NCBI GenBank assembly: GCA_030600545.1
Contig: JAUVLV010000018.1
Coordinates: 1 to 44,138, forward strand
From: Candidatus Aegiribacteria sp.
GTDB lineage: Bacteria; Fermentibacterota; Fermentibacteria; Fermentibacterales; JCC-6
DNA length: 44,138 nt
Direction of reading: 5' to 3'
In this document: positions 11,111 to 43,646 of the stretch, one piece after another
Layout: the number at the start of each line of letters is the position of its first letter
Numbering within the stretch: the first letter of the stretch is position 1
Made by a program: the position numbers and the translations under genes
Notes under the pieces: model-generated
Told to the model about the DNA's origin: nothing
What the model saw: the letters and a program-made list of their open reading frames with translations, nothing else
Database searches by the model: none

Positions 11111-11270
11111 CGGAATCAGGTGACAACAGGAAATGAACTGCTAACTCAGCGTAAATTGCATTCAAAGTATTTTTAACTACCTTTGCCATCTAAATGCATA
11201 TGGCAATAGAGTTATCGCCGAATACATCGCGAATGAAATCGAATAATTATCCTGTACCCGGAAATACTTG

Positions 11271-11289
11271 AATGAGCAGACTCATTTTT
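11271..11289 (+). terminator. Weak intrinsic terminator candidate before the Cys-rich propeller gene
   Basis: AATGAG (11271-11276) pairs with CTCATT (11281-11286) across a CAGA loop and is followed by further T residues to 11289. The stem is short and AT-rich, so this is marginal. It lies about 160 bases after the pump operon and 30 bases before the next start. Confidence 0.25.
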
Positions 11290-11317
11290 CATCGGTTTAT
11301 CAGAATAAAGGTTATGG

Positions 11318-12517: not shown

Positions 12518-15500
12518 GGATTATACTTGCGATTTCAGTCAATGTAAGTGATTCAGCCGAGGCTCTGATCTCATTTACCGTTTTGTCTGGCAGTTTACCA
12601 AGGACATTGCTGAGCAGTTCTTCAATATTCGTTGACTCGCCTTCAACGAAGAATGATTCTTTATTCTCCTTTATGAACAGAAGGGCTAACGCGGCATAAT
12701 CCAGCCTGTTATCTTCAACAAACCTCTTTGATATTTCGAGAAGTGCTGAGAGGGCAAGTGGAAGAAGGCCCACTAAGGTAGCTGTCTTAAGGGCTTTGCG
12801 GTAATATTCCAGGGATTTCCCTGGGTTTCCCAGGTTATTTACATCACGTCCGAGATTCAGATAGCAAATAACTATACCTTCGCGGTCTCCAATTCTCTCG
12901 GATATGGAAAGGCTTTTTTCATGGAGTTCCAGAGAATGCTGCTTGTCTCCTCTGACGAAAGAAACGTTGCCCAGGTTTCCAAGGCAGTTGGCAATTCCCC
13001 ATTGATTCCCAAGTGATTCGTAGGCTTTCAGGCTTTCTCTGTAGTACTCACCAGCATCCTCAAATCGGTCGAAAGTCATGGCTATGTTTCCCATGTTTAG
13101 CTGTGTGATGGATATTCCGTTGACATCATCTATTTTCCTGTAGATTTCATAGCTCTTTTTATAATAGGAGAGGATTCTGTCATAGTCCCTCTCATTATCG
13201 AAATCTGCCATTCTCATCGTAGCTCTGGCCAGAATTGATCTGTTACCGGATTTTTCAGCGCTTCCGTAGGCCTTTAAGCCCAGTTCTTGTGCAAGATCCA
13301 TCTGACCCCTGAGGATTGCTATCCAGGTTAGAACAAGCAGTGACTGTGCAGCAATTCCCTGTTCGCTCTCTTCCTCTGCGATTTCCAGTGCCCGTTCCAG
13401 TTGCTTGCAGGCTTCATCGTATCTGGTCAGCTTTTCAAGAGTGCAGCCCGTATCAAGGTGAAGCTGCGCAAGATCACCATAACCATCCGGAACGATGGAA
13501 AGAGCCCTCTGGAATGCAGATAGAGCTTCCGCAAAAGAACTTGTTGAATAGGCGGATTTGCCCGATCTCGACAGCCATTCAACGGCATGCTTCCGGTCAG
13601 CGCCCCTGTCATAGTGTTCGGCTATCAATCCGGAGAATTCTGAAACGCGGTCTCCGCTGTTATTGACAATCCACTCAGCAATCTTGCGGTGGTACGTTTT
13701 TCTGAGTTCAAGAAGTACTGTATCGTATGTTACATCCTTCAGTATCGCATGCTTGAAAAGATACTCCCGGGCGCGCGAGAACGTTGAATCATCGTTTCCA
13801 TGTATCAGATCCCTGGACTGCAGCAGAGAAAGCATTGAATCGGTATCTGTGCTGTTCTCATACAGATTCTCCACCGCAAGGTCCCAGAACAGTCTTCCTA
13901 TTACAGATGCTTTCTGAAGCATTTCTTTTTCCTCGCCGGGCAGGCTGTCAAGCCTGGCCTGCAGAACACCGGTAAGAGTAGAGGGTACTGTTTTCCTGAT
14001 CATTGATCCGGGTTTTACCGTCCATCTATCTTTTCCCGGAATGATAACACCGTCTTCCACAAGCATTGCTATCAGTTCTTCCACATAGAATGGATTGCCC
14101 TCGGAACTTGAAAGAACAAGGTTAGTGATATACGCAGGAAGGTCTTCCACTTCTTTCAGGATTTCTCTTATAAGGTTGCCACTGTATTTCTCGGACAATG
14201 GTTTCAATTTTATAAAACGATGCGGAAGCCCTTCCCCCCAGCGTGGATGCGTTTCAAGAAGAGGAGGTCTGGAAAGGGAGAGTATCAGTAGTCTGTCATC
14301 GGTGATATCCCCTGCCAGTCGTTCTATCAGTTCAAGGGATGTGTTGTCCGCCCAGTGCAGATCTTCAAGGTATATCAGGGTTCTGTTATCGGCTGCGGTG
14401 CCTCGGAAGTAATTGATCAGGCAGGACTGGCCGGTGGCTGCCAGAGCCGGTGTTCCCATGAGTTTTCTGACCGGTTCGGATGATGAAAAATCGAATCCTG
14501 CGTAGTGGCATGCTATATGTATTTCATCCTTTGTCAGATATTCACCCATTTCCGCTTCGAACTTCTTCCATGCGACTTCGGCTGAATCAGTTTCCCTGAC
14601 GTTCATTCTGTACCTTAGAATATCCCTGAATACCGAGCAGGGAGTATTTTTCATTTCAGGAGTACATCGCGCATTGAAGAAGACTATATCATCGCCTTCC
14701 CGCTCAACCCTCTTTCTGAATTCATGAAGCAGTCTGGATTTTCCAATACCGGCCTCACCGATAATGGTAATCATGCGGGGAGTGCTTTCAAGCATCGTTC
14801 TGTTAAGAGTGTCTATCATGGTCTGTAGTTCTTCATCCCTGCCTATCATTTCGGTCTCAATACCCAGTATACCTGTGTTGATCTGCTGGAATCTTCTGGG
14901 ATTGGCCGATAGGGCAACGTAGGTTTTCAGAGGATCGGTAATACCTTTTACTTCGATAGGATCTCTGGATTCAAAAACAAAAGCGTTCCGGACATGCTTG
15001 TAAGAATCATGAGAAACGATGACGCTTCCAAGCGGAGCTGAGGACTGAAGCCTGGATGCTACATTAACAGTGTTACCCATTGCGGTATATTCTCCCTTGA
15101 GTCCGATTCTGCCCAGGAAGACAGGGCCGGAATGTACTCCTATTCTCATTCTGAATTTCGGGATTCCCTTTTCCGGGTCAGGAAGGATTTTCTCCGCTGA
15201 AGCCTGCATCTCCAGAGCTGATTTTATCGCTCTTTCCGTATCGTTCTCCCGAACGGTTTCTGTTCCCCAGAGGGCCATAACGGCATCACCGATGTGTTTA
15301 TCTATCACACCTCCATGTTTGATTACGATGGAATCAAGGGCGGTCCAGAGGTAGTTAAGTGCCTCCGTAACGTATTCAGCATCGTGTGATCCGCATATTT
15401 TTGTGAAATCCGATATGTCCGCGAAGAGTACGGTAACGTATTTCCGCAATTTCCTTCCGTCATTATCACTGATATTCTCAAGCTTTTCCCGGAGAGGGAC

Positions 15501-15608
15501 CAGAGCGATATCCACGATTTCGCTTCCCAGCTCATCCCTTTTTTCCTCAAGGGCTGCGATGGCCTTCTGCAGACGTATCTTATTGTTCTTTGAACCTTCT
15601 TCAGCCAT
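12504..15608 (-). CDS. Class III nucleotidyl cyclase - ATPase - TPR multidomain regulator
   Basis: This 1034-residue cytoplasmic protein has three parts. Residues 1-50 are helical and charged. Residues about 57-235 form a class III adenylate/guanylate cyclase domain: metal-binding Asp64 (LFADISDFTK) and Asp108 (HIGDAVMA), Lys104 and Thr175 at the positions that select ATP in adenylate cyclases, and Asn182/Arg186 in GNTVNVASRL for the transition state. All catalytic residues are present. Residues about 255-600 form a STAND/AAA-type ATPase with Walker A GEAGIGKS (284-291) and Walker B LIYLEDLHWAD (411-421). The C-terminal third is TPR repeats, several with the NLGNV and NLGRD-type pattern. The architecture suits a signal-gated cAMP source whose TPR arm senses a partner. 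It lies alone, convergent with the propeller gene. Confidence 0.9.
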   Translation of the reverse strand: MAEEGSKNNKIRLQKAIAALEEKRDELGSEIVDIALVPLREKLENISDNDGRKLRKYVTVLFADISDFTKICGSHDAEYVTEALNYLWTALDSIVIKHGGVIDKHIGDAVMALWGTETVRENDTERAIKSALEMQASAEKILPDPEKGIPKFRMRIGVHSGPVFLGRIGLKGEYTAMGNTVNVASRLQSSAPLGSVIVSHDSYKHVRNAFVFESRDPIEVKGITDPLKTYVALSANPRRFQQINTGILGIETEMIGRDEELQTMIDTLNRTMLESTPRMITIIGEAGIGKSRLLHEFRKRVEREGDDIVFFNARCTPEMKNTPCSVFRDILRYRMNVRETDSAEVAWKKFEAEMGEYLTKDEIHIACHYAGFDFSSSEPVRKLMGTPALAATGQSCLINYFRGTAADNRTLIYLEDLHWADNTSLELIERLAGDITDDRLLILSLSRPPLLETHPRWGEGLPHRFIKLKPLSEKYSGNLIREILKEVEDLPAYITNLVLSSSEGNPFYVEELIAMLVEDGVIIPGKDRWTVKPGSMIRKTVPSTLTGVLQARLDSLPGEEKEMLQKASVIGRLFWDLAVENLYENSTDTDSMLSLLQSRDLIHGNDDSTFSRAREYLFKHAILKDVTYDTVLLELRKTYHRKIAEWIVNNSGDRVSEFSGLIAEHYDRGADRKHAVEWLSRSGKSAYSTSSFAEALSAFQRALSIVPDGYGDLAQLHLDTGCTLEKLTRYDEACKQLERALEIAEEESEQGIAAQSLLVLTWIAILRGQMDLAQELGLKAYGSAEKSGNRSILARATMRMADFDNERDYDRILSYYKKSYEIYRKIDDVNGISITQLNMGNIAMTFDRFEDAGEYYRESLKAYESLGNQWGIANCLGNLGNVSFVRGDKQHSLELHEKSLSISERIGDREGIVICYLNLGRDVNNLGNPGKSLEYYRKALKTATLVGLLPLALSALLEISKRFVEDNRLDYAALALLFIKENKESFFVEGESTNIEELLSNVLGKLPDKTVNEIRASAESLTLTEIASIILKAI

Positions 15609-20695: not shown

Positions 20696-22516
20696 TCAGT
20701 CCAGTTCGAAAACTTCATGCAGATCCTTTTCCTTTTCGCTCTTGGGCTGATCCTTCTTTAAAAGCAGACAGTCACCGAGCGCGAGCATGTCCATCTGCGT
20801 TCTCATGAAGCAGATGTAGGCGTCATCGGGTGAACAGACGATCGGTTCCCCTCTCACGTTGAAACTTGTGTTTATTATAAGGCCGCAGCCTGTTTTTTTC
20901 TCGAAGGCTTTGATCAGCCTGTGGTACCTTGGATTCCGTTCCATGTCCACTGTCTGGACCCTTGCGGAATAATCGACGTGTGTGATGGCAGGTACATCAG
21001 ACCGAGGTGCCTTCAGCTTTTCTATCCCGAAGAGATTTTCCTGTTCCGGTGTAAGCTCCGTCCTCCGAAGGGGCTGTACAGGGGCAACCAGCAGCATGTA
21101 AGGGCTTGGTCTGTCCAGCTCGAAGTAATCCGAGACACGCTCCTCCAGTACCGATGGTGCGAAAGGTCTGAAGGACTCCCTGTACTTGATCTTGAGGTTC
21201 ATCCGTGACTGCATCTCGGGACTCCTGGCATCACCGATGATGGATCTGTTGCCCAGTGCTCTCGGTCCGAATTCCATCCTGCCGCCGAACCAGCCCACTA
21301 CCTTGCCGTCTGCAATGGCATCGGCCACCAGGTCGATGGTATCGGCTTCTTCCAGCCTCCTGTAGCGATAGTCCTTCACTTTTAACCACGTCTCGATGCT
21401 GTCGTTGTCCCATGATGGACCAAGAAGGGAGCCTTGCTGCAGGTCGTGAACACCATCGGCTTCCCGTGCGCCGTTCAGTACCTGGTGCCAGGTGAAGAGC
21501 GCGGCTCCCAGAGCGCCTCCGGCGTCTCCGGCAGCAGGCTGTATCCAGATGTCGTCGAAGATACCTTCTCGAAGTATCTTACCGTTTGCCACGCAGTTCA
21601 GGGCCACTCCCCCGGCGAGGCAGAGGTTCCGAAGGCCAGTTTTTCTTCTGACGTGCCTGGCCGTCCTGAGCATAACCTCCTCGGTGACCGCCTGGACAGA
21701 GGCAGCCAGGTTCATGTCACGCTGTGTCAGCTTGCTTTCCGGTTTCCGGGGAGGTCCTCCGAACAGTTTGTGGAACTTCCTGCTGGTCATTGTAAGTCCC
21801 TGGCAGTAGTTGAAGTAGTCCATGTTCATCCTGAAGCTGCCGTCCTCCTTGAGGTCTATCAGCTCGTTCAGGATGAGATCGGCGTATTCAGGTTCTCCGT
21901 AGGGAGCAAGACCCATCACCTTGTACTCCCCCGAATTCACCCTGAAGCCCGTGTAGTAGGTAAAGGCAGTGTAGAGCAGCCCCAGGCTATGAGGAAAATG
22001 GAGTTCTCTCATCAGCTCGATGCGGTTACCGCTGCCGCTTCCCCAAGAACCTGTGGCCCATTCACCTACACCGTCCATCGTTATGACTGCCGCCTCCGGG
22101 AAGGGGCCGGGGAAGAAGGCAGAAGCCGCGTGTGACTGGTGGTGCTCAGTGTAGATCATCTCACCCTTAAAACCGCCCAGCTCTTTCCTTATCATTTCGC
22201 CCATCCAGAGTTTTTCTTTGAGCCAGAGAGGCATGGACTTCAGGAATGAGGGAAGACCTGAGGGCGCGAATGAGAGGTAAGTCTCGAGGAGTCGCTCGAA
22301 CTTCAGGAAGGGTTTATCGTAGAAGGCTATATGAGTAAGTTCTCCAGCATCAATGCTTCCCTCTTCCAGGCAGTACGAGATGGCGTTGCTGGGAAAGGCA
22401 TGATCGTGTTTCTTCCGCGAGAAGCGTTCCTCCTGTGCTGCTGCCACAATACGTCCGTCGTGTACAAGGCACGCGGCGGAATCATGGTAAAAGGCGGAAA
22501 TACCGAGGATGAACAT
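20696..22516 (-). CDS. NodU/CmcH-family O-carbamoyltransferase
   Basis: This 606-residue enzyme transfers a carbamoyl group from carbamoyl phosphate to a hydroxyl of an acceptor, such as a sugar or a secondary metabolite, through a carbamoyl-adenylate. The N-terminal Kae1-like half starts ILGISAFYHDSAACLV and carries AAAQEERFSRKKHDHAFP. The HHQSHAASAFF segment supplies His ligands for the metal, and LAGGVALNCVANGKIL is in the ASKHA-type nucleotide fold. The C-terminal half has FGPRALGNRSIIGDAR, the carbamoyl phosphate-binding signature, and NTSFNVRGEPIVCSPDDA. The start I prefer is the ATG at 22516, with GGGAG four bases upstream. An in-frame ATG 27 bases further upstream exists only because copy 2 of the repeat spells MQDLTP. 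Visibly more GC-rich codons than its neighbours. The acceptor is unknown; no sugar-activation gene is nearby. Confidence 0.93.
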   Translation of the reverse strand: MFILGISAFYHDSAACLVHDGRIVAAAQEERFSRKKHDHAFPSNAISYCLEEGSIDAGELTHIAFYDKPFLKFERLLETYLSFAPSGLPSFLKSMPLWLKEKLWMGEMIRKELGGFKGEMIYTEHHQSHAASAFFPGPFPEAAVITMDGVGEWATGSWGSGSGNRIELMRELHFPHSLGLLYTAFTYYTGFRVNSGEYKVMGLAPYGEPEYADLILNELIDLKEDGSFRMNMDYFNYCQGLTMTSRKFHKLFGGPPRKPESKLTQRDMNLAASVQAVTEEVMLRTARHVRRKTGLRNLCLAGGVALNCVANGKILREGIFDDIWIQPAAGDAGGALGAALFTWHQVLNGAREADGVHDLQQGSLLGPSWDNDSIETWLKVKDYRYRRLEEADTIDLVADAIADGKVVGWFGGRMEFGPRALGNRSIIGDARSPEMQSRMNLKIKYRESFRPFAPSVLEERVSDYFELDRPSPYMLLVAPVQPLRRTELTPEQENLFGIEKLKAPRSDVPAITHVDYSARVQTVDMERNPRYHRLIKAFEKKTGCGLIINTSFNVRGEPIVCSPDDAYICFMRTQMDMLALGDCLLLKKDQPKSEKEKDLHEVFELD

Positions 22517-22526
22517 ATTACTCCCT

Positions 22527-22569
22527 GGGGTCAGGTCTTGCATTTATGCATTATTACACTTTTATATAA
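22527..22569 (+). repeat. Direct repeat copy 2, right edge of the carbamoyltransferase segment
   Basis: GGGGTCAGGTCTTGCATT is followed by TATGCATTATTACACT and a TTTTATATAA tail, matching copy 1 in 38 of 43 positions. It contains the palindrome TGCATTTATGCA. Read on the minus strand it contains TATTATATAAAAG, so it may supply a promoter for the carbamoyltransferase. It sits between that gene's start and the end of proS. Confidence 0.8.
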
Positions 22570-27778: not shown

Positions 27779-28356
27779 AAGCAACTGAACTGTCCGTAGA
27801 TATCTCAAATCCTGAAGAGGAAATCGTTGAGAAAGCAGCTTCACTCCTTCTCTCTGGAGGAGTAGTCCTTTACCCTTCCGATACTGTTTACGGAATACTG
27901 TGTCGTGCCGATAAAAGGGATTCTGTGAAGAGACTTGCGAAGATCAAGGGTTACGTGCGCCAGAGACCCTTCATCCTTCTTGTTGATAGTGTGGTTATGG
28001 CGAGAACGATTGCGGACTGCAGCGATCCTGAAGTTATCGGGATAATGGAATGCCGGTGGCCTGGAAAGCTCACTCTTGTTCTGCCTGCATCGGAGGAATG
28101 CCCGGAATGGGTTTGTGGTGATGAACACACCGTTGCCCTGCGATATCCCGCCGATAAACTTAGCAATCTGGTTATTGGTAATTGTGGTATGCCCCTTGTA
28201 TCCACCAGTGCGAATTCTGCAGGAGAAAATAGCTACTTTAATGTGAAGGATATTCCGGGTTACATTAAGGATAAGGTTGATCTGATTGTCGATGCTGGAA
28301 TTTTGCCACCTTCATCCCCATCAACCATCCTGCGCCTTCTCCGGGGTCGTTCTTAA
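27775..28356 (+). CDS. tsaC: Threonylcarbamoyl-AMP synthase (YrdC/TsaC type)
   Basis: This 193-residue YrdC-domain protein makes threonylcarbamoyl-AMP, the donor for t6A modification of tRNA position 37. [14 protein letters not shown] is the substrate pocket strand, followed by [13 protein letters not shown] (the family's K-x-R-x-x-x-P block, here with an extra Tyr and Val). [10 protein letters not shown] and [12 protein letters not shown] form the ATP/Thr-binding loops, and SPSTILRLL closes the fold. It lacks the C-terminal Sua5 domain, so it is the short TsaC form. Start is GTG, overlapping the purE stop. It is the last gene of the operon, and its stop overlaps the convergent LPG-TM/radical SAM gene by three bases. 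Confidence 0.93.
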
Positions 28357-28395
28357 GTTAAGTCCGGCTGCGGTCGCCCCCGACCCCGGAAGGCG
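28333..28395. terminator. Long inverted repeat over the convergent tsaC/radical-SAM gene ends
   Basis: CGCCTT-CT-CCGGGGTCG (28333-28349) pairs with CGACCCCGG-AAGGCG (28381-28395): 15 base pairs with a two-base bulge, across a 31-base loop (28350-28380). It spans the last codons of both convergent genes. No T-run follows it on either strand, so it may act as a bidirectional pause or mRNA-protecting structure rather than a classical intrinsic terminator. Confidence 0.5.
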
Positions 28396-30479
28396 ATCCA
28401 GAGGGCCTTGAAAAGACTGGGGGGATGAAGCAGAATGTTCGAGTAAGCCTGATTTGCTAACGGGCAGGCACATTCACCACGCCTGATTGATTTTCTTATT
28501 TCCTTTGCTTTCTTTGAATTCCAGATGTCCTGGAAATCCGTATTCTCATTGAGTTTCCCCATCTGTCCCTTGTACGCGAGTACTGCACAGGGCCAGATTC
28601 CTCCATCGGAGTTTATATGAACATTCATCAATCCTGCCGAACAGGGAATTACCTGTCTTTTTTCATTGAGTATTTTAACAACAAGATCATAATAAACAAC
28701 CCTCAGTGCCGTCGTAATTCTTGGCAGAAGTTTCATGTCTCTCATTTTTTCCAGTACTGAATTTTTGAAGACATCCATTATTTTACCATAATTATCACCG
28801 TCCGGTGTGATGCCTGAGCCCAGATTAAAGAACTCCTCCCTCTCCTCAGCTATTTCATTAATGTAGGAATCAACCTCCATATTTTTCGAATATTCAATTA
28901 TTTCTCCAAGGCGATCAGCATTGAATCTGGATATTACAGTACCCACTCCAACTTGGAGATTACTGTGTTTTCTCTGCATATTTTTGAGCTGATCTAGCGT
29001 ATCAAGCAGTTTTTTAAAATTGCCCGGAACGCCTCTTATTTCATCATGAAGTTTTCCTATGCCGTCAAATGAGGGTTTAATCGTTAGAACAGTCCCGGGA
29101 GCTTCCCTGTCAATTACGTCAAGGATCTCATTAGTCATCCGTATTATTCGGTCTGTTGCTATCGCATTTGTCGGTATATGAACAATTGCTGGAGTCATGA
29201 ATCTGCAGGCGTACTTGATAATATCTGGCAGATCATCCCTCAGAAAGGGTTCTCCTCCCGAGACATTGAAGAAGTAAGTCCAACCAATGGAGCGGAACAA
29301 CCTTTCAATAGTACTAATATCAAGATCATCATCGGAGTTATGCTTCCAGATGTAACAGGTTTTGCATCTTGACTGACATTTTCTTGTAACAGAAAATGTT
29401 ACATTAATCGGGTTTGGTGCCTTGGCCAGTCCGTACATTGCCAGCTTACTTCTGATAACACTTCCCCCCAGATGGAAGATTTGCTCAACATGGTTCATGG
29501 ATTTGGTAAATCGGCGACGAAGATAACCGTAAATTATTCCCTGAAGTGCGTAGAGTCCTTCCACTACCATCAGCATAAACCTTTGCCCGAGTGCTATTAC
29601 TGTAGCGACTTGAACTCCACCTTGAACAAAACCTGAAAGAAGAAGCCCCTGAACACCCTCTCTTATACCAATCCCTCCAGGGATGAAGACCATTACCAGT
29701 GCAATGAACCAGGAAACTGGTCCTGCTAGCATACATACCGCTATCATTGCGAAAGGTTGCTCCGGCCGAACTCCGAAACCGCGGAACCATAAATAAAGAG
29801 CCATGCTGCGAAGACTCCACGAAAACAGATGGTAACCAATAAAGATTGCCTGGTCCTTATGCGAGATATGAGGTAAAGTATCGATGTCCATGCCAAATTT
29901 GTGACTCAGCCTATGCGCGAGTTTCTTCTGGATTTTCGGCGCGAATAGCATTACAATTCCCAGAATAACAGAGATCCAAAGGGCAATTACAACGGGAACA
30001 GGTACATTTGCAAGACCCAGAAAAGGAAGACCAATCAAAGCCATGATTGTCAGGGCGACCATCATATAGATGTTCTCAAGAATAAGTGCTGTTATTGCTT
30101 TTACCGGTCCAATGCCCTTTGCCTTAAGAAAAGCTATCCTTCCAACAACCATCCAGAGTTTTCCCGGAACGTACTGTCCCATCTGGGTGATATACCAGTT
30201 GCGTCTTACTTCGCCCTTATCGATCTTGGGAACCTTCAGTGCATCCAGTATCTTTCGCCAGGGTGCTGGAGCGAAATGATAACCAAGCATCAACGATATA
30301 AAGGAAAGCACTACCATAGGCAGACTGGCGCTCTCCCTTGAAGTTTCCCAGAAACGAATGATCTCTGGCTGCCATTTTGGCCAGAGATTCAGTGTGAAAT
30401 ACAGAATAGCTGCTATCAGGAGGATTACACCTCCCCAGGTCGAGAGTATATGGAACAGTCTTTTGCGGTCTCTTGTCAT
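28353..30479 (-). CDS. Fusion: LPG-synthase-TM (UPF0104) membrane domain + radical SAM/SPASM-like enzyme
   Basis: This single 708-residue frame joins two families. Residues 1-330 form an LPG_synthase_TM (UPF0104) domain of about eight helices, with the conserved MGQYVPGKLWMVVGRIAF (100-117) and FIPGGIGIREGVQGLL (265-280). This family includes the flippase half of MprF and AglD-like proteins. Residues about 355-700 form a radical SAM enzyme: CQSRCKTC (Cys368, Cys372, Cys375) binds the 4Fe-4S cluster that cleaves SAM, NVSGGEPFLRDDL is the GGE motif for SAM, and a C-terminal Cys set (PCSAG, WPCAV, GECACPL) fits a SPASM/Twitch auxiliary cluster. The joint around 330-355 has no stop or internal start signal. 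It is the last gene of the envelope operon, overlapping YfhO by ATGA, and it has a paralogue of its N-half at 32809. The substrate is unknown; it is likely a lipid-linked one, since the enzyme is tethered to the membrane. Confidence 0.9.
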   Translation of the reverse strand: MTRDRKRLFHILSTWGGVILLIAAILYFTLNLWPKWQPEIIRFWETSRESASLPMVVLSFISLMLGYHFAPAPWRKILDALKVPKIDKGEVRRNWYITQMGQYVPGKLWMVVGRIAFLKAKGIGPVKAITALILENIYMMVALTIMALIGLPFLGLANVPVPVVIALWISVILGIVMLFAPKIQKKLAHRLSHKFGMDIDTLPHISHKDQAIFIGYHLFSWSLRSMALYLWFRGFGVRPEQPFAMIAVCMLAGPVSWFIALVMVFIPGGIGIREGVQGLLLSGFVQGGVQVATVIALGQRFMLMVVEGLYALQGIIYGYLRRRFTKSMNHVEQIFHLGGSVIRSKLAMYGLAKAPNPINVTFSVTRKCQSRCKTCYIWKHNSDDDLDISTIERLFRSIGWTYFFNVSGGEPFLRDDLPDIIKYACRFMTPAIVHIPTNAIATDRIIRMTNEILDVIDREAPGTVLTIKPSFDGIGKLHDEIRGVPGNFKKLLDTLDQLKNMQRKHSNLQVGVGTVISRFNADRLGEIIEYSKNMEVDSYINEIAEEREEFFNLGSGITPDGDNYGKIMDVFKNSVLEKMRDMKLLPRITTALRVVYYDLVVKILNEKRQVIPCSAGLMNVHINSDGGIWPCAVLAYKGQMGKLNENTDFQDIWNSKKAKEIRKSIRRGECACPLANQAYSNILLHPPSLFKALWIAFRGRGRPQPDLT

Positions 30480-32812
30480 TCTGTTGTTTTCTTCCTCGTT
30501 CTTCCGGATTTCATATCAAGGGCGATGATAAGAAGAACGGACAGTAAACCCGCAATTGATATTACAAGCCCGGTGGTTACATCGGATGAATCGAATCTGA
30601 ATTCTACCTCGTGCAGTCCTGAAGGTACAACAACTCCACGCTGCCAGTGATTTGCCTGCATCATCGAAGCCGGTTCTCCATCTATGAATACATGCCACCT
30701 CGGATACCATGTATCGGCGAGAATTAGGAGACCATCCTCCGGGTTATCAGTTCGAATTGTAACCTGTTGAGGTTCATCAAGTACTATTGTTGCTTCCGCT
30801 TCCGATGTATTCAGTATTTCGGGCAGTTCAGAACTTTCGTACAGTATCGTGATTTCTTGCGGATCTATACCGCTCGATAGAAGATTCAGACACTGATTCT
30901 CCGATAGTTCTACCCAGGCTTCAGCAAACCATACCCTTGGAAGGGGTTCCACAGGAAGCAAAGCTTCGAGTGTATCAACATAGGAAGGATTTGAAGAAGA
31001 TGTCTGCTCAATTATAGAGCCTCTGAACTGCGCGTATGTGAGATACCCATCCTGTGTCTGAAGAACTGTAAAAGCAGTCTGCCTGGCTGCTATGACCCCG
31101 CCCGTTGAAATAATGTACTGAAGGTCTTCCGCAATGGCGGTTTTTGCCGCATGATAACCACCTACCGACCTGATATGGTAGGGAACGAATTCGTTCCCTC
31201 CCGGGAGGAGCCTTCCTGACCCTGTCAGCGCGGAAAGATCATTGTCGTGATCAAAAAGTTCATCAACACTTGTTTCATCAAGGTAGAACTGAAAATCTTT
31301 GTCCAGCGGTATTATTTCAACGGCAATCAGAACCGAAAGGACTGTACCCGGGATAAACAGACCCATTTTTATTTTGTTTCTGAAATAGATTAAACCTGCC
31401 AGTACCAGAGCAGCAGCAGCAGCTTTCAGGAAATCCGGAGAAGCCATATCAACTCTTCTTTGTACTACGGAAGCGTATCCTGAAGCAGAGGGGTTCCCCA
31501 TTCTGGACCACCAGCCGGATTGCAGACCGGGCAATACAGAATCAGCGAGCAGGAAGATCAGCACACATATGCTGGCAAAAACGGAAATTCCGATCAGGAA
31601 CTTCCTCCTCGGAAAACTATCGTTCCTGAAAATTGCATCGAAGCCAGGGCCCGCAGACAGTGCTATAGCGGAAGTTGTAAGAAATGCGGCCATATGCGGA
31701 GCTCTCAGTTTACTGAAAAATGGTACGATCTTGTAGAGTACTCCGAAGAACGGTGTATAACCGCCCCATGAGGTGAGCAGTCCTGTCACCATAATAGCCA
31801 GCAGAGGCCATCTGTATTTTTTTGAAAAGCCCAGAAATGCGGCAGATGCCAGCAGAAAAACCAGAATACCTGTGAATTCACTGCTCAATCGTAGCCCGAG
31901 TCTGCCGAAATACAGAGGAACACCGGAAAATGTACTATCAGGAAATCCATGTCTGTAACCGAAAAGATGCGGGAACAGCATTGTAAGTGTTTCTTCCGGA
32001 GGGAGAGAATAGCTTGATGCCTGATCGAGGGAGAGATTATCACCTCTTGTAGAATACTCCGAGAAATTGTATCCAGGCAGCAGTTGAACTGCGCCTATAG
32101 CTACTGCAAGAAGTACGATAGTCACTATTCCCATTGATGCACTTCCAAGGTTCTTCCCAATGGTTCCTTTTCTGGAGAAAGCCCGGAAACCGAACCAGAT
32201 TAAAGCTGCTCCCACCGAGTAGAGAACCATCTGTGGATGACTGGCCAGGGTCTGCATACCAAGAGCTATCCCGCCGATTGCGATGTATTTTCCCCTTCTT
32301 GTTTGCATCCACTTTTCGCATGAATACAGCAGAAGAGGTAAAAAACTCCAACAGATTATCTTACTGCCATGTCCAGCGTAGAACAGTGTATTTGACCAGG
32401 CTGTTACGGCAAAAGCAATAGAACCAGCTATTCTGCCCCACCTGCTTACTCCGATGGATCCAAGAAAGAGCCAGGCGAATATTCCGCCAAGAAGCATTTG
32501 AACAGGAAAAAGAAAACGAGCCATACCTTCTACTCCCGTAATCAGAAGAAGCAGGCCTCGAACAGGATAGAAAACAGGGGCAGAAAATGAAGAGTAGAAT
32601 GGAGTACCACAGAATACGTATGGATTCCAGTGGGGGAGACTGCCATCCTGAAGAGATTCAGCAGTGTATGTAAAGAAGGGATATCCCTGAGTTACCGTAT
32701 CGCTGAGTTCCCCGCCTGGCAGTTTTCCTGATGTAAAGACAGTTGAATAGGTTATTAGTACTGCAGGAATCAGAAAAAGCAAATACCCGGTTCTTTTCGG
32801 AAATGAAATCAA
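30476..32812 (-). CDS. YfhO-family polytopic membrane protein (GT-C-like)
   Basis: This 778-residue membrane protein has about 12 or more helices, beginning at residue 8. It has an early acidic loop (GGELSDTVTQGYPFFTYTAE) with Asp positioned as in GT-C glycosyltransferases, and LPHWNPYVFCGTPFYSSFSA, typical of the YfhO (bacterial membrane protein, PF09586) family. A large soluble C-terminal domain (about 520-745) lies before the last helix (about 745-770). YfhO-type proteins attach sugars from polyprenyl-phosphate donors to envelope glycans, as seen with teichoic and lipoteichoic acids in Firmicutes. The adjacent GT2 gene is a natural supplier of that donor (inference). Start TTG at 32812, with GGGG about nine bases upstream; the stop-start overlap is TTGA. 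Confidence 0.85.
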   Translation of the reverse strand: MISFPKRTGYLLFLIPAVLITYSTVFTSGKLPGGELSDTVTQGYPFFTYTAESLQDGSLPHWNPYVFCGTPFYSSFSAPVFYPVRGLLLLITGVEGMARFLFPVQMLLGGIFAWLFLGSIGVSRWGRIAGSIAFAVTAWSNTLFYAGHGSKIICWSFLPLLLYSCEKWMQTRRGKYIAIGGIALGMQTLASHPQMVLYSVGAALIWFGFRAFSRKGTIGKNLGSASMGIVTIVLLAVAIGAVQLLPGYNFSEYSTRGDNLSLDQASSYSLPPEETLTMLFPHLFGYRHGFPDSTFSGVPLYFGRLGLRLSSEFTGILVFLLASAAFLGFSKKYRWPLLAIMVTGLLTSWGGYTPFFGVLYKIVPFFSKLRAPHMAAFLTTSAIALSAGPGFDAIFRNDSFPRRKFLIGISVFASICVLIFLLADSVLPGLQSGWWSRMGNPSASGYASVVQRRVDMASPDFLKAAAAALVLAGLIYFRNKIKMGLFIPGTVLSVLIAVEIIPLDKDFQFYLDETSVDELFDHDNDLSALTGSGRLLPGGNEFVPYHIRSVGGYHAAKTAIAEDLQYIISTGGVIAARQTAFTVLQTQDGYLTYAQFRGSIIEQTSSSNPSYVDTLEALLPVEPLPRVWFAEAWVELSENQCLNLLSSGIDPQEITILYESSELPEILNTSEAEATIVLDEPQQVTIRTDNPEDGLLILADTWYPRWHVFIDGEPASMMQANHWQRGVVVPSGLHEVEFRFDSSDVTTGLVISIAGLLSVLLIIALDMKSGRTRKKTTE

Positions 32813-33753
32813 AATGTTTTCCCCTTTCCGAAGAATTTTACTGTTCGTGTAGAAGCGAGGGCAAAAAATACTTCAATAATCGATAAAATCAAACGCTGTC
32901 CTGCAATAACAGCAAGAACAGGACCCGTGGCACCTGAAGGAGCAAGAAGGGCTACCGCAGCCGCCTCCCTTACACCGATTCCACCAGGAATAAGAAATAC
33001 AATATAACCGGCAAGCCATGAAAGCGGCGCAGCTGCACAGCAAAGAAGAAAACCTATACCTGAAAGGCCGAAGCCTTTCAGCCAGAGAAAAAGTGCAAAT
33101 CCCCGAACCCACCATAAGACAGAATAGATAAGAAGCAGCTTAATAGAACCTGTTAATCCCGGCAATGGTAATTCCTGAGGAACAAGCCCGTACTTCAGCC
33201 TGTACAGCCACTTCTGAATGGGGGTGAGAAATGGAATCGCAAGAAGTGAGATACCCGCTGCAAGTACCGCATACTTCAAACCTGAATGCGAAAACACATC
33301 ATTGCTTGAAACAATAACCGGTATCACAGCGGCAAGTCCTGCTCCAGCTGCTGTGTACAGCAGTTCAAGAAATGGAATGCTCGTAGCTCTGTATCCGGTA
33401 AGACCTCGTGATCTCAGGAAAGCGACTCTACCGGCGAACAGCCATACTTTTCCGGGTACATACCGGCCGAGTTGTGACATGAACCAGGCGGCTCGAAGTT
33501 CTTTTGAACTAACAGTGCTTCCCACACGGTGTGAGAGAATTATCCAGCCGGCAGGTATGATGAAGTAGGATATACCAAGCAGGAGGGCTGCGGCGCATAT
33601 AAAAAACCAATCAAGCTGCCAGCTGAATCTGTTTATCTGTTCAAGCCATTTCTCAGCGTTCAGAATAATGATCCATACGGCAACAGCGAGGAGAAGCAGC
33701 ACACCGATTCTCATTAGCCATTTGATCCATATTTTTTCTCTGATTGTGTTCAT
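32809..33753 (-). CDS. LPG-synthase-TM (UPF0104) membrane protein, stand-alone
   Basis: This 314-residue polytopic protein shares the family's marks with the N-half of the fusion at 28353: SQLGRYVPGKVWLFAGRVAF and FLIPGGIGVREAAAVALL. About eight helices are visible. Start chosen at the ATG at 33753, overlapping the last base of the epimerase stop (TAATG); a GTG 30 bases upstream is inside the epimerase. As the family includes lipid flippases, it may move a lipid or lipid-linked sugar across the inner membrane. Having a fused and a stand-alone copy in one operon suggests the two may work as a pair or on two substrates. Confidence 0.88.
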   Translation of the reverse strand: MNTIREKIWIKWLMRIGVLLLLAVAVWIIILNAEKWLEQINRFSWQLDWFFICAAALLLGISYFIIPAGWIILSHRVGSTVSSKELRAAWFMSQLGRYVPGKVWLFAGRVAFLRSRGLTGYRATSIPFLELLYTAAGAGLAAVIPVIVSSNDVFSHSGLKYAVLAAGISLLAIPFLTPIQKWLYRLKYGLVPQELPLPGLTGSIKLLLIYSVLWWVRGFALFLWLKGFGLSGIGFLLCCAAAPLSWLAGYIVFLIPGGIGVREAAAVALLAPSGATGPVLAVIAGQRLILSIIEVFFALASTRTVKFFGKGKTF

Positions 33754-34652
33754 TACGGTAGAATTCCATTCTTCAGATACCACGAAACTGTCTCGCCTAT
33801 ACCTCTCTTAATATCCCATTCGGGATAAAAATCAGCCTTTTCAGCTTTTTCGGTTGATACGTAGTGATCCTTACCGAAGAGTTGGAATCTGCTTTCCGAA
33901 AGAGCGTCTGGACACAGCTTTCCTGAATTGAGAGCTATTCTGAAGAAAACCTTTGGCAGATGTATGATTCTTAAAGATTGACCCAGAGCTGACGCAATCT
34001 CGCTGGAAAGTTCCCTGACAGTCACAATATCCGGACCAGCAATGTTAAACAGACCACCGTTCAGTATTCCTCCGGGAAGAGCAGATTCCACTGCTCGGCA
34101 GACATCTCCTGCAAATGTGGGTCTTATTTTGGCGCCGTTCCTTCCGATCAGGGGCATCCATCCTTTTGAAACCTGTTTAAACAAAGCAAGCTTATGAAGG
34201 TCACCAATCCCGTAAACGAAATCAGGACGCAGAACTGTCAGCCGGTCAGCAGGCAGGTCTTCGTGTTCACGCAGGTTTATCTCACCCACCATTTTGGATG
34301 ATTCATATTCGCCCCAGGGATTGTATTCCGAATCTTCCGAAGCGTTCGCTGAAAGGCCTGTAACACCGGGAGTACTAATGTGTATCAAATGAATATCCTT
34401 CTTCGAACAGTGGTCAGCAAGCATTTTTGGAAGGGTTGCATTGGATAACATTAACTCGGTGCTGTCAACGTCTGGAGTTCCCAATCGACCTGCTGAGTTA
34501 ACAATTACATCTACATTTTCAGGTATCCCATCCGGAGAAAGGTTTCCATCCTTCGATCTTTTGTAAATAGCGGTTTCATACCCTCTTCTGGAAAGGTACT
34601 CCGCAATGCATGATCCTATAAAACCGCCTGCTCCGGTAATGAATATCCTCAT
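33753..34652 (-). CDS. NAD-dependent epimerase/dehydratase (extended SDR)
   Basis: This 299-residue extended short-chain dehydrogenase works on nucleotide sugars, normally UDP- or GDP/dTDP-linked. The Rossmann motif GAGGFIGS is at 7-14. HISTPGV (91-97) supplies the Ser/Thr of the catalytic triad, and the Tyr-x3-Lys pair is in YESSK (Tyr116, Lys120). RPDFVYGIGD is the sugar-binding strand. The protein is shorter than UDP-glucose 4-epimerase, so a specialised sugar 4-reductase or epimerase is possible. It lies between the GT4 gene (ATGA overlap) and the LPG-TM gene. The exact sugar is not deducible. Confidence 0.9.
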   Translation of the reverse strand: MRIFITGAGGFIGSCIAEYLSRRGYETAIYKRSKDGNLSPDGIPENVDVIVNSAGRLGTPDVDSTELMLSNATLPKMLADHCSKKDIHLIHISTPGVTGLSANASEDSEYNPWGEYESSKMVGEINLREHEDLPADRLTVLRPDFVYGIGDLHKLALFKQVSKGWMPLIGRNGAKIRPTFAGDVCRAVESALPGGILNGGLFNIAGPDIVTVRELSSEIASALGQSLRIIHLPKVFFRIALNSGKLCPDALSESRFQLFGKDHYVSTEKAEKADFYPEWDIKRGIGETVSWYLKNGILP

Positions 34653-35761
34653 TGCAGCTTTTTCATAAGTTCTTCAGCATAAGTTTCCCAGCTGAACGAG
34701 GCAGCTTTCAAGCGTATCCTGTTTTCTGTATCAGGATCGGAAGCAAGGTCAAAGGCAGCCAGTATGGATTCGGCCAGGCTTGATGGTGACCAGGGCTGAG
34801 CAAGAAAGCCTGTGGAACCAGGATCAACAAGTTCTGACAATCCTCCGGTATCGGTGAGAACAAGAATTCTGCCGAATGAGAGAGCTATTTGTGCCACACC
34901 GCTCTGAGTAGCGCTGCGGTAAGGAAGGGCGACAACATCAGCTGCATTGAAATAAATGGCAACGTCATCATCTGGAACGAACTCGTCGATCCATCTTATT
35001 CTATCTGAAAGCTTAAGAGAGGAGATGATTGAAGTTATTTCACGTCTGTCTGCGTAGCATTCGCCGACAATAAGAAGAGATATCTTATCCGGAAGGGCAC
35101 TCATTGATCTTACAAGATCCTGAACTCCCTTGTATGACCGTACAAGACCGAAGAAAAGAATCAAACGTGTAGTTTTCGAGTAACCAAGTTGCTTTCTGGC
35201 ATTCTCCCTGGTGACTTCAGGATTATTGTATTGATCGTAAATAGGATGGTAAAGCTTGAGAAGCTCTGCATCAAGATCAAGAGTTTCGGCTTCTTTCATA
35301 TCCGTTTCGCTGTGCACAACAGCAAGATTCATTCTGTTGAGGAAATTTCTTGACAATCTTCCAGCAAAAGGGAAGGACTCATGGGGAATAACATTGTGAC
35401 AAACAGCAGCTGACGGAATTGCCCTGGGAATTGAAGCAAGAAGCGATGGTGCAAAGAAGGGATTCCACCATTGAATGATCAAATTATCGAATCCGGAATT
35501 CTTGAAATACTTTCTGGATGATATCCACTTAAAAGGATTGCATGAATCTATCTGACGAACAATTTCATCGGAGTTCTGTCCGTTATCGGGTTCGAGTTGT
35601 GACGTTCCGGGGAACAGAACGGATGGATAAAGTCTTCTGTACGATATTGGAACAAAATCATGTTCGGGAAAGCTGGATGTAAGGGTTTTGAAAAGCCGCA
35701 TTGAAAACTGGGCAATTCCACCACGGTAGGGCGGAAATGGTCCTGCAACACCGGTCTTCAT
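34649..35761 (-). CDS. GT4-family glycosyltransferase
   Basis: This 370-residue GT-B fold enzyme starts with the nucleotide-independent loop GPFPPYRGGIAQFS (7-20), which binds the acceptor. LILFFGLVRSYKGVQDLV opens the C-terminal Rossmann domain, and the donor-binding region has ALPYRSATQSGVAQIALSFG, the place of the E-x7-E motif (here the first Glu is replaced by an SATQSG context). Such enzymes are retaining glycosyltransferases that use nucleotide sugars on the cytoplasmic face. There is no membrane helix. It overlaps GT2 (ATGA) and the epimerase (ATGA). Acceptor and sugar are unknown. Confidence 0.88.
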   Translation of the reverse strand: MKTGVAGPFPPYRGGIAQFSMRLFKTLTSSFPEHDFVPISYRRLYPSVLFPGTSQLEPDNGQNSDEIVRQIDSCNPFKWISSRKYFKNSGFDNLIIQWWNPFFAPSLLASIPRAIPSAAVCHNVIPHESFPFAGRLSRNFLNRMNLAVVHSETDMKEAETLDLDAELLKLYHPIYDQYNNPEVTRENARKQLGYSKTTRLILFFGLVRSYKGVQDLVRSMSALPDKISLLIVGECYADRREITSIISSLKLSDRIRWIDEFVPDDDVAIYFNAADVVALPYRSATQSGVAQIALSFGRILVLTDTGGLSELVDPGSTGFLAQPWSPSSLAESILAAFDLASDPDTENRIRLKAASFSWETYAEELMKKLQ

Positions 35762-36720
35762 TCTTCTTCCGATTTGGGATCGGTTTTTTCCAGAATATCG
35801 AATGATTTATTTCTAGATAGTTTCAAAAACATCTCGCCGAGGAGTCCCAGTGAGATGAACTGAAATCCGACAACGAGAAGAAGTACTCCAAGAAGCAGAA
35901 GGGGTCTTCTTCCGATTGATTCACCTCCGAACCAGATTACTGTAAGATATGCTGAAATACCCAGGCCAATCAGTGCCAGTACTGTCCCGATGCCCCCGAA
36001 GAAATGGAGAGGTCGGTAAGAGTATCTGTGCAGGAAAAGCACAGTCAGAAGATCTGAATATCCCCTGAAAAAACGGGCTAGTCCGTACTTGGTTTGTCCG
36101 TATTTGCGTTGCCTGTGATTGACAGTCTTTTCCCCGATCAAGAAACCCTGCTGAGCTGCCAGTACGGGAGTATACCTGTGCATTTCTCCGTAGAGTTCTA
36201 AATTTTCGATGACTTTTCTTCTGTAAACCTTCAATCCGCAGTTGAAATCATTGAGTTTGACACCTGTGGTCAGCCTGACGGTGAAATTGAAGAACTTTGA
36301 GGGCAGCGTTTTCCCGATAGGATCCTTACGATCTTTTTTCCATCCATTGACAAGATCGAAGCCTTCTTTAACCATCAGATCAATTATTCCGAGTATTTCA
36401 AATGGATCATCCTGAAGGTCAGCATCAAGAGTCGCGATAAATTTGCCCCGTGATTCATTGAATCCCGCAGCAAGAGCGGCAGCCTTTCCCTTGTTACTGC
36501 TGAATCTTAATCCTGTTACCGGGAAATCAGAAGATAGCTGGGAGATTCGTTCCCACGTGTTATCAGTGCTGCCGTCATCGATGATGATAATTTCATAGGT
36601 TTTGTTCTGCATGCATTCGGATATCTCTTTTACAAGTTCCGGAAGGCTCTCCTCTTCGTTGAACGCCGGAATTACAATTGAGACATCCGGGTTTTTATCT
36701 CTTGCCAATAACTCTGTCAC
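35758..36720 (-). CDS. GT2-family glycosyltransferase, GtrB/DPM-like (polyprenyl-phosphate sugar synthase)
   Basis: This 320-residue enzyme has an N-terminal GT-A domain with VSIVIPAFNEEESLPELV, IIDDGSTDNTW (Asp48-Asp49) and DADLQDDP (Asp99, Asp101), then YRRKVIENLELYGEMHRYTP and QRKYGQTKYGLARFFRG, which mark the GtrB/DPM branch. Two C-terminal helices (about 235-295) anchor it in the membrane. The family transfers a sugar from UDP or GDP to undecaprenyl (or dolichyl) phosphate, making the donor that GT-C enzymes use at the outer face. That suits the YfhO-family gene of this operon. Confidence 0.92.
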   Translation of the reverse strand: MTELLARDKNPDVSIVIPAFNEEESLPELVKEISECMQNKTYEIIIIDDGSTDNTWERISQLSSDFPVTGLRFSSNKGKAAALAAGFNESRGKFIATLDADLQDDPFEILGIIDLMVKEGFDLVNGWKKDRKDPIGKTLPSKFFNFTVRLTTGVKLNDFNCGLKVYRRKVIENLELYGEMHRYTPVLAAQQGFLIGEKTVNHRQRKYGQTKYGLARFFRGYSDLLTVLFLHRYSYRPLHFFGGIGTVLALIGLGISAYLTVIWFGGESIGRRPLLLLGVLLLVVGFQFISLGLLGEMFLKLSRNKSFDILEKTDPKSEEE

Positions 36721-36722
36721 TG

Positions 36723-37484
36723 TTACCTCTTCTCCTTATGACTCATGGATGTTCCATCTGAATATGTAAGCAGTTCAGGTTTTCCAGTACCGTTTTTCAT
36801 GCGGCAGTAAGTGAATCTCGTCAGCCAGTCTCCAAGAGAGACATATATACCTTTTTTACTTCTATTGACAGTGTCCAGGTGTGTGTGGCCTGCAATAATG
36901 ATATCAATACCCTCATCGAATTTGCCCTTAATCCAGTCCTGCAGTCCTGAGGATATACTATCAAGGTTACGCCTGAGAATTCTCTTACTTGTATCTGAGA
37001 AACGCCTTGCCAGGAAAGTACCAAGGTCAGGATGAAGAAGGCTGAAGAGAAATCTGCTTATTCTCGATCTTAAAACCGGCTTTAAAAGCCTGTAACCGAC
37101 GTCACCAGATCCCAGTCCGTCGCCATGAGCCAGGAGTACCCGCTTTCCACTTATATCCAATGTCAGATAATCATCAAAGTGGATTATTGCCCCGGTCGCT
37201 TCACTGAAATGCCTTCCTACCCAGAAGTCATGATTGCCGGGAAGGAAGTGAACTGTCCATCCTTTATCGGAAAGCCTTCTTAATGCGGAAAGGCATCTTT
37301 CGAATCCGGATGGGATAACGCTCTGGTATTCGAACCAGAAATCGAAGAGATCGCCCAGTATCCAGAGTTCTCCCGGATCGTTGAGATCATGGAGACAATC
37401 AAGGAAGGAAATGAATCTATTCCGACCGGGATGAGGTTCCCGCTCCGGGAAAAGATGAACATCACTCAGAAAGAATCTGTCCAT
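36723..37484 (-). CDS. lpxH: UDP-2,3-diacylglucosamine diphosphatase-like metallophosphoesterase
   Basis: This 253-residue calcineurin-like phosphoesterase has the full set of metal motifs: SDVHLF (Asp8, His10), GDLFDFW (Asp45), GNHD (Asn84, His85), AHGDG (His120) and GHTHLD (His200, His202). The order and spacing fit LpxH, which removes UMP from UDP-2,3-diacylglucosamine in lipid A synthesis. A general LpxH-like phosphoesterase acting on another UDP-lipid is an alternative, since no other lpx gene is present. Its start overlaps the lipoprotein stop by one base (TAATG). Confidence 0.8.
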   Translation of the reverse strand: MDRFFLSDVHLFPEREPHPGRNRFISFLDCLHDLNDPGELWILGDLFDFWFEYQSVIPSGFERCLSALRRLSDKGWTVHFLPGNHDFWVGRHFSEATGAIIHFDDYLTLDISGKRVLLAHGDGLGSGDVGYRLLKPVLRSRISRFLFSLLHPDLGTFLARRFSDTSKRILRRNLDSISSGLQDWIKGKFDEGIDIIIAGHTHLDTVNRSKKGIYVSLGDWLTRFTYCRMKNGTGKPELLTYSDGTSMSHKEKR

Positions 37485-42069: not shown

Positions 42070-42404
42070 CGGCAGAACTATCTCAGAAGGACAATCCGGG
42101 CTGAGGTAATGTCACCTGATCCACTCACAAGACGAATAAGGTAAACCCCATCGGCCATCGTTTCGCCGCCCGATACGCAACCAGCCCACAGGAAGGAGTT
42201 CTGTCCCTCAGCCAATTGGCCAAGCTCATAGTCGCTCACCAGCCGCCCCGACGTATCGAAAACTTCGAGCCTGACAGACTCGAACCCCAGAGACTGGAAC
42301 AGCACTATGGCGGTGGACCTAACCGGATTCGGACAGACCGAGCTGATGGAAAGAAGCTCCTGAACCGGGGTGACAGGTATGTCCTCCACTGAGACCGGCA
42401 TACC
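42070..42404. repeat. Direct duplication of the RCC1-gene 3' end (second copy at 43639-43973)
   Basis: Sequence from CGGCAGA-CTATCTCAGAAGG onward through the C-terminal domain code is nearly the same in two places, offset by 1569 bases (42070 and 43639). Identity is high by eye throughout, with scattered substitutions. The duplication begins a few bases past both stop codons, which points to a whole-gene tandem duplication. Confidence 0.8.
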
Positions 42405-43295
42405 ATGAAGCCCCAGGCTATGGTAACCTCCACCTGCCAGATCCACGAAGTCCGTATTGGGCGCGGGGACGTTGCATTGGCCGAAGTAGTTCCATCCCCA
42501 GGCCACTATAGAGCCGTCTTCTTTCACCCCCAGGCTATGGTTATATCCACATGCCACTTTCACGAATCCAGTGTTGGGCACAGGGACGTCGCATTGGCCG
42601 TAATCGTTATACCCCCAGGCCACTATCGAGCTGTCCGCTTTCAGCCCCAGGCTGTGGTTACCTCCTGCCACATCCACGAATCCAGTGTTGGGCGCGGGGA
42701 CGTTGCATTGGCTGTCGCTGTTATCCCCCCAGGCCACTATCGAGCCGTCTTCTTTCAGCCCCAGACTATGGAAACATCCACCTGCCAGATCCACGAATCC
42801 CGTATTGGGTGCGGGGACGTTGCATTGGCTGTCGCTGTTATCCCCCCAGGCCACTATCGAGCCGTCTTCTTTCACCCCCAGGCTGTGGTAATATCCAGCT
42901 GCCACATCCACGAATCCCGTATTGGGTGCGGGGACGTCACATTGGCCGTAGCTGTTACTCCCCCAGGCCACTATCGAGCCGTCCTCTTTCAGCCCCAGAT
43001 TGTGGTAACATCCACCTGCCACATCCACGAATCCAGTGTTGGGCGCGGGGACGGTGCATTGGCCGTTTCCGTTATCCCCCCAGGCCACTATCGAGCTGTC
43101 TTCCTTCAACCCAAGACTGTGGTAACGTCCACATGCCACATCCACGAATCCCGTATTGGGTGCGGGGACGTCGCATTGGCCATATTCGTTCCACCCCCAT
43201 GCCACTATCGAGCCGTCCTCCTGGGCGTGCGATGATCCTGCAAGAAACACCAGGAGAGTAAGACAGATATAAAATGAAAGTCTTGAGTATCGCAT
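42078..43295 (-). CDS. Secreted RCC1-repeat protein with C-terminal sorting-type domain
   Basis: The protein has 405 residues from the ATG at 43295. The signal peptide ends SSHA before QEDGS. Residues 26-297 contain seven near-identical 39-residue units (one of 38), each with SIVAWG-N--GQC-VPAPNTGFVDVA-GYHSLGLK, an RCC1-like seven-bladed propeller. The last 108 residues have SISSVCPNPVRSTAIVLF and SGRLVSDYEL, plus GVYLIRLVSGSGD, typical of a Por/T9SS-style or FlgD-like C-terminal Ig-fold that guides export to the surface. The start upstream at 43346 would spoil the signal peptide. It is co-directional with, and 351 bases downstream of, its partial paralogue at 43647. Confidence 0.88.
   Translation of the reverse strand: MRYSRLSFYICLTLLVFLAGSSHAQEDGSIVAWGWNEYGQCDVPAPNTGFVDVACGRYHSLGLKEDSSIVAWGDNGNGQCTVPAPNTGFVDVAGGCYHNLGLKEDGSIVAWGSNSYGQCDVPAPNTGFVDVAAGYYHSLGVKEDGSIVAWGDNSDSQCNVPAPNTGFVDLAGGCFHSLGLKEDGSIVAWGDNSDSQCNVPAPNTGFVDVAGGNHSLGLKADSSIVAWGYNDYGQCDVPVPNTGFVKVACGYNHSLGVKEDGSIVAWGWNYFGQCNVPAPNTDFVDLAGGGYHSLGLHGMPVSVEDIPVTPVQELLSISSVCPNPVRSTAIVLFQSLGFESVRLEVFDTSGRLVSDYELGQLAEGQNSFLWAGCVSGGETMADGVYLIRLVSGSGDITSARIVLLR
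42405..43220 (-). repeat. Seven tandem RCC1 blade repeats (117-base units)
   Basis: The units are about 117 bases each (one is 114) and are highly similar at DNA level: the VPAPNTGFVD and SIVAWGDN codons recur almost unchanged, and two central units share DNSDSQCNVPAPNTGFVD. Low divergence suggests recent amplification or gene conversion. The antisense frame stays open across the array only because the repeat has no stop codons in that frame. Confidence 0.85.
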
Positions 43296-43646
43296 TGTAC
43301 CACCATCCCTTCTCCATCTATGGGGTCGTATCTTGAATTTTGACATTTCAATAACTGTTGGTCAGTATTACTCTGCCTGAAAAAGTATACACGGGGCAAT
43401 TTTCAATGTCAAACAATAATCGAATTCTGGACGCTATTTTATTGCTAAAGGGATGTTTCCGTATACGGTCAGGAGCGATGCCTTTAAGCAGCGACCCGAA
43501 CCGTTCCGGTCTGATTTCCTTACAGTTGCATAGGGATAAGGTAGCCCGTTATCAGCTCAAGTTCGATCTCGGTATCGTTCCTTATGAGCGTTAATGACAC
43601 TGTAGAACCGACAGTGTCACTTGGTGCATGAATCTATTCGGCAGAG
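43296..43646. other. Intergenic region between the two RCC1 genes with a hairpin
   Basis: A perfect nine-base-pair inverted repeat, TGACACTGT (43595-43603) with ACAGTGTCA (43611-43619), surrounds a seven-base loop about 30 bases after the stop of the upstream minus-strand RCC1 gene. No T-run follows, so termination is uncertain. A plus-strand frame of 78 codons (43358-43594) has no ribosome binding site or known family and is not called. Confidence 0.4.

Follow-up and report, generated by a model that had tools for sequence, protein, structure and literature searches.

The known case in which a single protein carries out both modification and translocation is MprF. In AglD-type proteins an LPG-type membrane domain is joined to a catalytic domain, the partner being a glycosyltransferase of family 2 (GT2) and not a radical enzyme, and the 4-amino-4-deoxy-L-arabinose placed on lipid A is also tailored first and then flipped. 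Calditol synthase (Cds), as described in the accessible text of PMC9385802, is a radical S-adenosylmethionine (SAM) enzyme that reworks a lipid-borne sugar. The present analysis concerns a stretch of 44,138 nucleotides from Candidatus Aegiribacteria sp. of the phylum Fermentibacterota (GenBank assembly GCA_030600545.1, contig JAUVLV010000018.1, positions 1 to 44,138; hereafter the window), which is contig 63 of a 2.29 Mb, 73% complete assembly, and in particular a gene on its minus strand (28353..30479) whose 708-residue product joins an LPG_synthase_TM membrane domain to a radical SAM enzyme with a SPASM-like cluster domain. The reading suggested here, with about even chances, is that this fusion protein follows the plan of MprF but carries a different catalytic head, and that it works by 'modify, then flip' on a lipid-linked sugar that is afterwards exported.

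The gene is a single frame at exactly the coordinates given in a first-pass annotation of the same DNA, with 708 codons, an ATG start and no internal stops, and its domains score above the Pfam cut-offs: LPG_synthase_TM (PF03706) at residues 49-295 (54.2 bits, cut-off 33.4), Radical_SAM at residues 363-511 (41.9 bits, cut-off 29.5) and SPASM (PF13186) at residues 613-672 (36.1 bits, cut-off 21.5). The membrane domain with its predicted MprF Subdomain 1-like fold covers residues 1-323 (29511..30479, minus strand like all parts of this gene) and contains the conserved motif PGGIGIRE (residues 267-274, 29658..29681). It is followed by a linker that is helical in the structure model (residues 324-355, 29415..29510), the radical SAM core (residues 356-605, 28665..29414) and the SPASM-like domain (residues 606-700, 28380..28664). 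The CxxxCxxC motif, here CQSRCKTC (residues 368-375, 29355..29378), provides C368, C372 and C375, and the SPASM-like domain C613, C631, C670 and C672. All seven cysteines, of which the first-pass annotation had pointed out both the core motif and the C-terminal set, are invariant in a 49-row alignment that includes the window protein. The tail motif CACPLANQAYSN (residues 670-681, 28437..28472) marks out the nearest clade.

For the order, 42 genomes were counted by hand (the window's own genome and others of the same genus, family or order), and 36 of them have a frame that spans both domains; 33 of these frames are full length, and those of G014, G020 and G040 stop at a contig edge. Elsewhere in the order the radical enzyme is solo in two genomes (G005 and G036), the membrane part is split over frames in one (G035), the membrane part or a piece of it is all that precedes a contig edge in two (G004 and G032), and no such locus was found in one (G009). 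The frame is kept even as identity to the window protein over its full length drops to 48% (18 aligned rows). The genome search listing gave one stop for many rows of the order; the same loci read directly are uninterrupted frames of about 700 residues. The ratio of nonsynonymous to synonymous substitution rates (dN/dS) against G018, the one pair unsaturated in all three parts of the protein, is 0.09 for the membrane part, 0.041 over 30 codons of the linker and 0.08 in the radical part. Within the membrane domain, P267, G268, G269, G271, E274 and R300 are unchanged in 33-36 of the 39 aligned rows (two rows coming from a single genome); apart from an A at 267 and an X at 300, the remainder are gaps. 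By these sequence comparisons, purifying selection acts on the fusion, which is conserved, and a frameshift or assembly artefact, for which the first-pass annotation had proposed a check on relatives, is rejected by the uninterrupted frames and the dN/dS values. The enzyme does not everywhere need the membrane domain, being solo in the same operon in two relatives. In one genome, to which the loci L055 (Candidatus Sabulitectum silens) and L068 belong, the membrane part extends over several frames and the radical part is intact; the pieces were searched apart, with nothing joined up, and the split may be due to sequencing error or decay.

Structure comparison of the predicted model matches the membrane part to the fold of MprF Subdomain 1 over 283 residues, while a phmmer search from the protein reached no MprF chain and a profile search gave no real MprF match, so it is predicted structure and not sequence that links this domain to MprF. 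In MprF the cytosolic modifying domain is likewise C-terminal to the LPG-type membrane domain; however, it is an aminoacyl-phosphatidylglycerol synthase of GNAT folds where the fusion protein carries a radical SAM head. A membrane Subdomain 2 also separates the flippase core of MprF from its catalytic domain, whereas the fusion protein has none, its catalytic domain beginning about 30 residues past the part aligned with Subdomain 1. E274 and R300 are proposed, on residue spacing only, to correspond to the gate pair Glu280-Arg304 in MprF of R. tropici, and the proline-to-glutamate spacing of this proposed gate agrees with that inferred from the accessible text of PMC8131360. From the predicted fold, the membrane domain could be a lipid translocase, and the idea put forward at first pass, of radical chemistry placed beside lipid translocation, gains from that fold and from the conservation of the fusion.

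The catalytic domain belongs to the radical SAM superfamily by its CxxxCxxC motif and its Pfam match, and 33 of the 49 family rows match PF13186 at 1e-5. Canonical SPASM domains hold two auxiliary clusters bound by seven or so cysteines. Since the 49 rows share only four invariant cysteines beyond the core, the alignment fits one auxiliary cluster and not the canonical two-cluster pattern. DesII, BtrN and SpeY are radical SAM enzymes that act on sugars or cyclitols; enzymes of this kind are not known to carry a membrane domain, and they act on soluble substrates. The best structural match of the catalytic domain is BlsE (14% identity in the structural alignment), which is also thought to carry a second cluster near its C-terminus, according to the accessible text of PMC3715490. 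None of the 15 NCBIfam models listed for the domain of the window protein at 1e-10 reaches its curated cut-off (the best scoring 65.2 against 306 bits), the domain thus lying below the cut-offs of Tes, NirJ, mycofactocin, PTO1314 and other named families, and none of the 25 models listed of 37 does so for the whole protein.

A profile of this family matched 73 of 385 genomes at E <=1e-45, of which 39 belong to the order and 34 do not. By these comparisons it is a radical SAM family to which no curated model appears to correspond, and it is present in Bacteria and Archaea; in the group of the archaeal locus L056 a member was found in 5 of 51 genomes (E 1e-20). The tails sort the relatives, with variants, into three tiers, 'CPLANQAYSN', 'CPLANASYTN' and 'CTxECFLTxN', with which the tree largely agrees; the first comprises the window protein, an archaeon and several bacteria, with the motif altered in L125. 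The fusion, for which a profile search had been recommended at first pass, was not seen outside the order among the 385 genomes, a scope that leaves room for fusions elsewhere. The frames of more than 600 residues outside the order are those of G328 (a reductase domain), G161 (only Radical_SAM and SPASM) and G329 (no Pfam scan). In the phylum of G302, 17 of 20 genomes matched, none over the membrane part of the profile, the long frames of G436 and G437 being left aside. Several relatives have other associations: in L125 (9124-11127, plus strand) the enzyme, with its changed tail motif, is fused to an FAD/NAD-binding reductase domain, a possible built-in electron supply. In L126 a geranylgeranyl-reductase-like FAD protein (11043-12239) adjoins it, with LptF/LptG-type genes nearby, and in L140 a gene of equal length (398 residues) occupies the same place (6106-7302). 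A plasmid search gave three distant matches at 24-27% identity.

In the window the fusion gene belongs to a run of minus-strand genes that overlap or are separated by gaps of at most 32 bases. It overlaps by 4 bases a gene for a large YfhO-like membrane protein (30476..32812), a proposed GT-C glycosyltransferase; the window's protein gives E 0.027 against PF09586 (13.3 of 28.5 bits), and seven of ten aligned YfhO-like rows match that model at E <=0.1, the best at 1.8e-21. Next come a second LPG_synthase_TM-type protein (32809..33783; 27.9 bits, below the cut-off of 33.4), which is a paralogue of the fused membrane domain, and, from domain scans, an NAD-dependent epimerase or RmlD-type short-chain dehydrogenase/reductase (SDR; 33753..34652) and a glycosyltransferase of family 4 (GT4; 34649..35761). 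The run also contains an ArnC/PgfS-like GT2 (35758..36720), a proposed polyprenyl-phosphate sugar synthase with a family match above cut-off and 177 of 529 bits for its best NCBIfam model, and an LpxH-like metallophosphoesterase (36723..37484; 108.7 bits, below the cut-off of 134). The order GT2, GT4, SDR, LPG-type, YfhO-like and fusion is consecutive in most loci read, some with an extra gene between. Across 16 loci of the order (of 20, L059, L062, L066 and L067, on short or cut contigs, and L074, of another family, were omitted), the LPG-type, GT4 and YfhO-like genes occur in all 16, GT2 in 14 and LpxH in 13. Neither GtrA nor Wzx was found among the 10 neighbourhood proteins to which the scan was confined, LPG-type proteins being present instead. 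A carbamoyltransferase gene also lies near the operon (20696-22543, minus strand), possibly representing a further sugar-tailoring step.

The distant relatives of the radical enzyme were examined for the same partners. None of six first-tier loci outside the order has a GT2 gene at 150 bp or less from its radical gene; 11 of the 17 loci in the second tier and 12 of the 18 in the third do. In the latter two tiers together it abuts the radical gene in 23 of 35 loci, on the same strand in 21 of the 23. As controls, stretches of about 20 kb were set by hand, not at random, elsewhere on the same contigs in 12 of these genomes, and 2 of 20 hold any GT2 match. The third tier is the fairer test, because the GT2 profile was partly seeded from first- and second-tier loci (neighbours from L122, L128, L130, L133 and L135, and the f72 genes of L131 and L137); it includes two paralogues from the order itself, L156 and L158, both without GT2, the fragment L160 being uncounted. 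Gene ends were taken from the longest frames, the large overlaps in L131, L145, L146 and L148 thus being approximate, and four places outside the order (G431:C92, G134:C9, G405:C88 and G411:C193) were omitted from the locus set. Among first-tier loci, the radical genes of L122 and L124 each adjoin a gene for a PMT_2 membrane glycosyltransferase (on the opposite strand in L124), paralleling the YfhO-like protein of the window, L117 has a GT4 and two GT2 genes, and L121, L123 and L125 gave no match to the glycosyltransferase profiles. In three genomes of family f72 an LPG-type gene, a GT2 and a GT4 lie near a solo enzyme; this grouping of the same parts looks to have arisen independently, since the f72 LPG-type genes fall outside the group of 37 described below.

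Taken with this wider GT2 pairing, the operon (GT2, GT4, sugar SDR, second LPG-type and YfhO-like proteins) narrows the 'lipid or glycolipid tailoring' suggested at first pass to the glycan side. The proposed mechanism follows the multi-component transmembrane glycosylation scheme set out in the accessible text of PMC8035078. The GT2 would load a sugar onto polyprenyl phosphate on the cytosolic side, and this polyprenyl-phosphate sugar is probably the substrate of the cytosolic C-terminal radical SAM domain, which would most likely oxidise the sugar of the lipid-linked glycan by dehydrogenation or oxidative decarboxylation. The one extra four-cysteine iron-sulphur cluster predicted there could accept an electron, and the SDR may complete the change to the sugar. 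The fused LPG-type domain would then present the lipid and, alone or together with its paralogue, carry it to the outer leaflet, where the adjacent YfhO-like protein would transfer the modified sugar to a polymer of the envelope; lipid A may be the acceptor, as the genome encodes LpxC and LpxB.

The origin of the fused domain bears on whether it still moves lipids. A tree of LPG-type domains, built from chosen loci and with a warning of long branches in its output, contains a group of 37 (support 97/98) in which the 19 rows of the fused domain, one of them truncated at a contig edge, form the sister clade to that of the 18 rows of the upstream LPG-type protein. The best explanation is that a gene was duplicated in tandem within this phylum and that one copy then fused to the radical gene. 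In the radical-domain tree, which omits rows below 165 bits and near-identical loci, the solo enzyme of G005 nests within a fused genus, and this genome has therefore most likely lost its membrane part, while that of G036 stands beside all others with branch support of 90/72 only and may either retain an older state or have lost the membrane part too. The idea that genomes without the fused domain have also lost lipid A was considered and dropped: LpxC has no match in G005, where LpxB is present, LpxC is present in G036, and it is without a match also in the fused genomes G008, G013 and G019. The same history would suit a membrane domain that only anchors the enzyme, the duplicated upstream gene having fused by chance with its downstream neighbour, and the two relatives that dispense with the domain and the broken frames in the L068 genome fit this too; yet a bare anchor would hardly need the conserved residues from P267 to R300 or so low a dN/dS, which makes such a role unlikely, though the likeliest of the alternatives. 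It is distinctly improbable that the radical domain instead alters the lipid hydrocarbon presented to it by the membrane domain, whether by cross-linking, by cyclisation or by some other change to isoprenoid or acyl chains of the kind made by Tes/MAS and GrsA/B, for the Tes cut-off of 450 bits is far from reached, the neighbours are glycan genes, and BlsE and peptide maturases fit better. A membrane-tethered maturase of ribosomally synthesised and post-translationally modified peptides is less probable still, as no listed model reaches its cut-off for the window protein, the tight gene run leaves no room for a separate precursor gene (one elsewhere being possible), Pfam, with E allowed up to 10, gives no domain for peptide recognition, and the wider family pairs with GT2 genes.

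Other features of the window include a Group II intron match at the contig edge (62-137, plus strand; RF00029, 58.6 bits against 40), a tandem pair of AcrB-type resistance-nodulation-division transporter genes (4037-10067, plus strand) and, on the minus strand, a protein combining a guanylate/adenylate cyclase catalytic domain, an AAA ATPase and TPR repeats (12504-15608), an RCC1-repeat protein with a FlgD-like C-terminal domain (42078-43346) and a frame cut by the window end that is 85% identical to the latter (43647-44138).

Thus, of the first-pass reading, the architecture, the cysteine motifs and the idea of radical chemistry at the membrane stand, whereas the membrane domain is not universal, as the two solo relatives demonstrate. 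The first-pass remark that no described enzyme of this makeup was known agrees with the literature searched, most subscription journals lying outside it. MprF Subdomain 1 as chassis, the radical SAM superfamily and the type of operon each belong to a known kind, and it is their combination that was not found in the searches made. If true, a second catalytic head would reveal a modular chassis and extend radical chemistry to the export of glycans. The fusion also serves as a pointer, suggesting a role for a broad radical SAM family with many members against glycosyltransferase genes, by virtue of which the function could be tested in more tractable organisms. More tentatively, and at somewhat less than even chances, a widespread family may partner GT2s in Bacteria and Archaea and tailor lipid-linked sugars at the membrane by radical chemistry, of which one Fermentibacterota member, on an MprF flippase chassis, modifies and then flips its glycolipid. 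Cds, to which the enzyme is likened by description and not by sequence, is archaeal and acts on the head group of a tetraether lipid, as far as the accessible text of its description goes. The present operon, with its GT2, a candidate flippase and a YfhO-like protein, resembles the CsbB-GtcA-YfhO multi-component systems as presented in the accessible text of PMC8035078; it has LPG-type proteins in place of GtrA or Wzx, and a radical SAM protein that this text does not mention.
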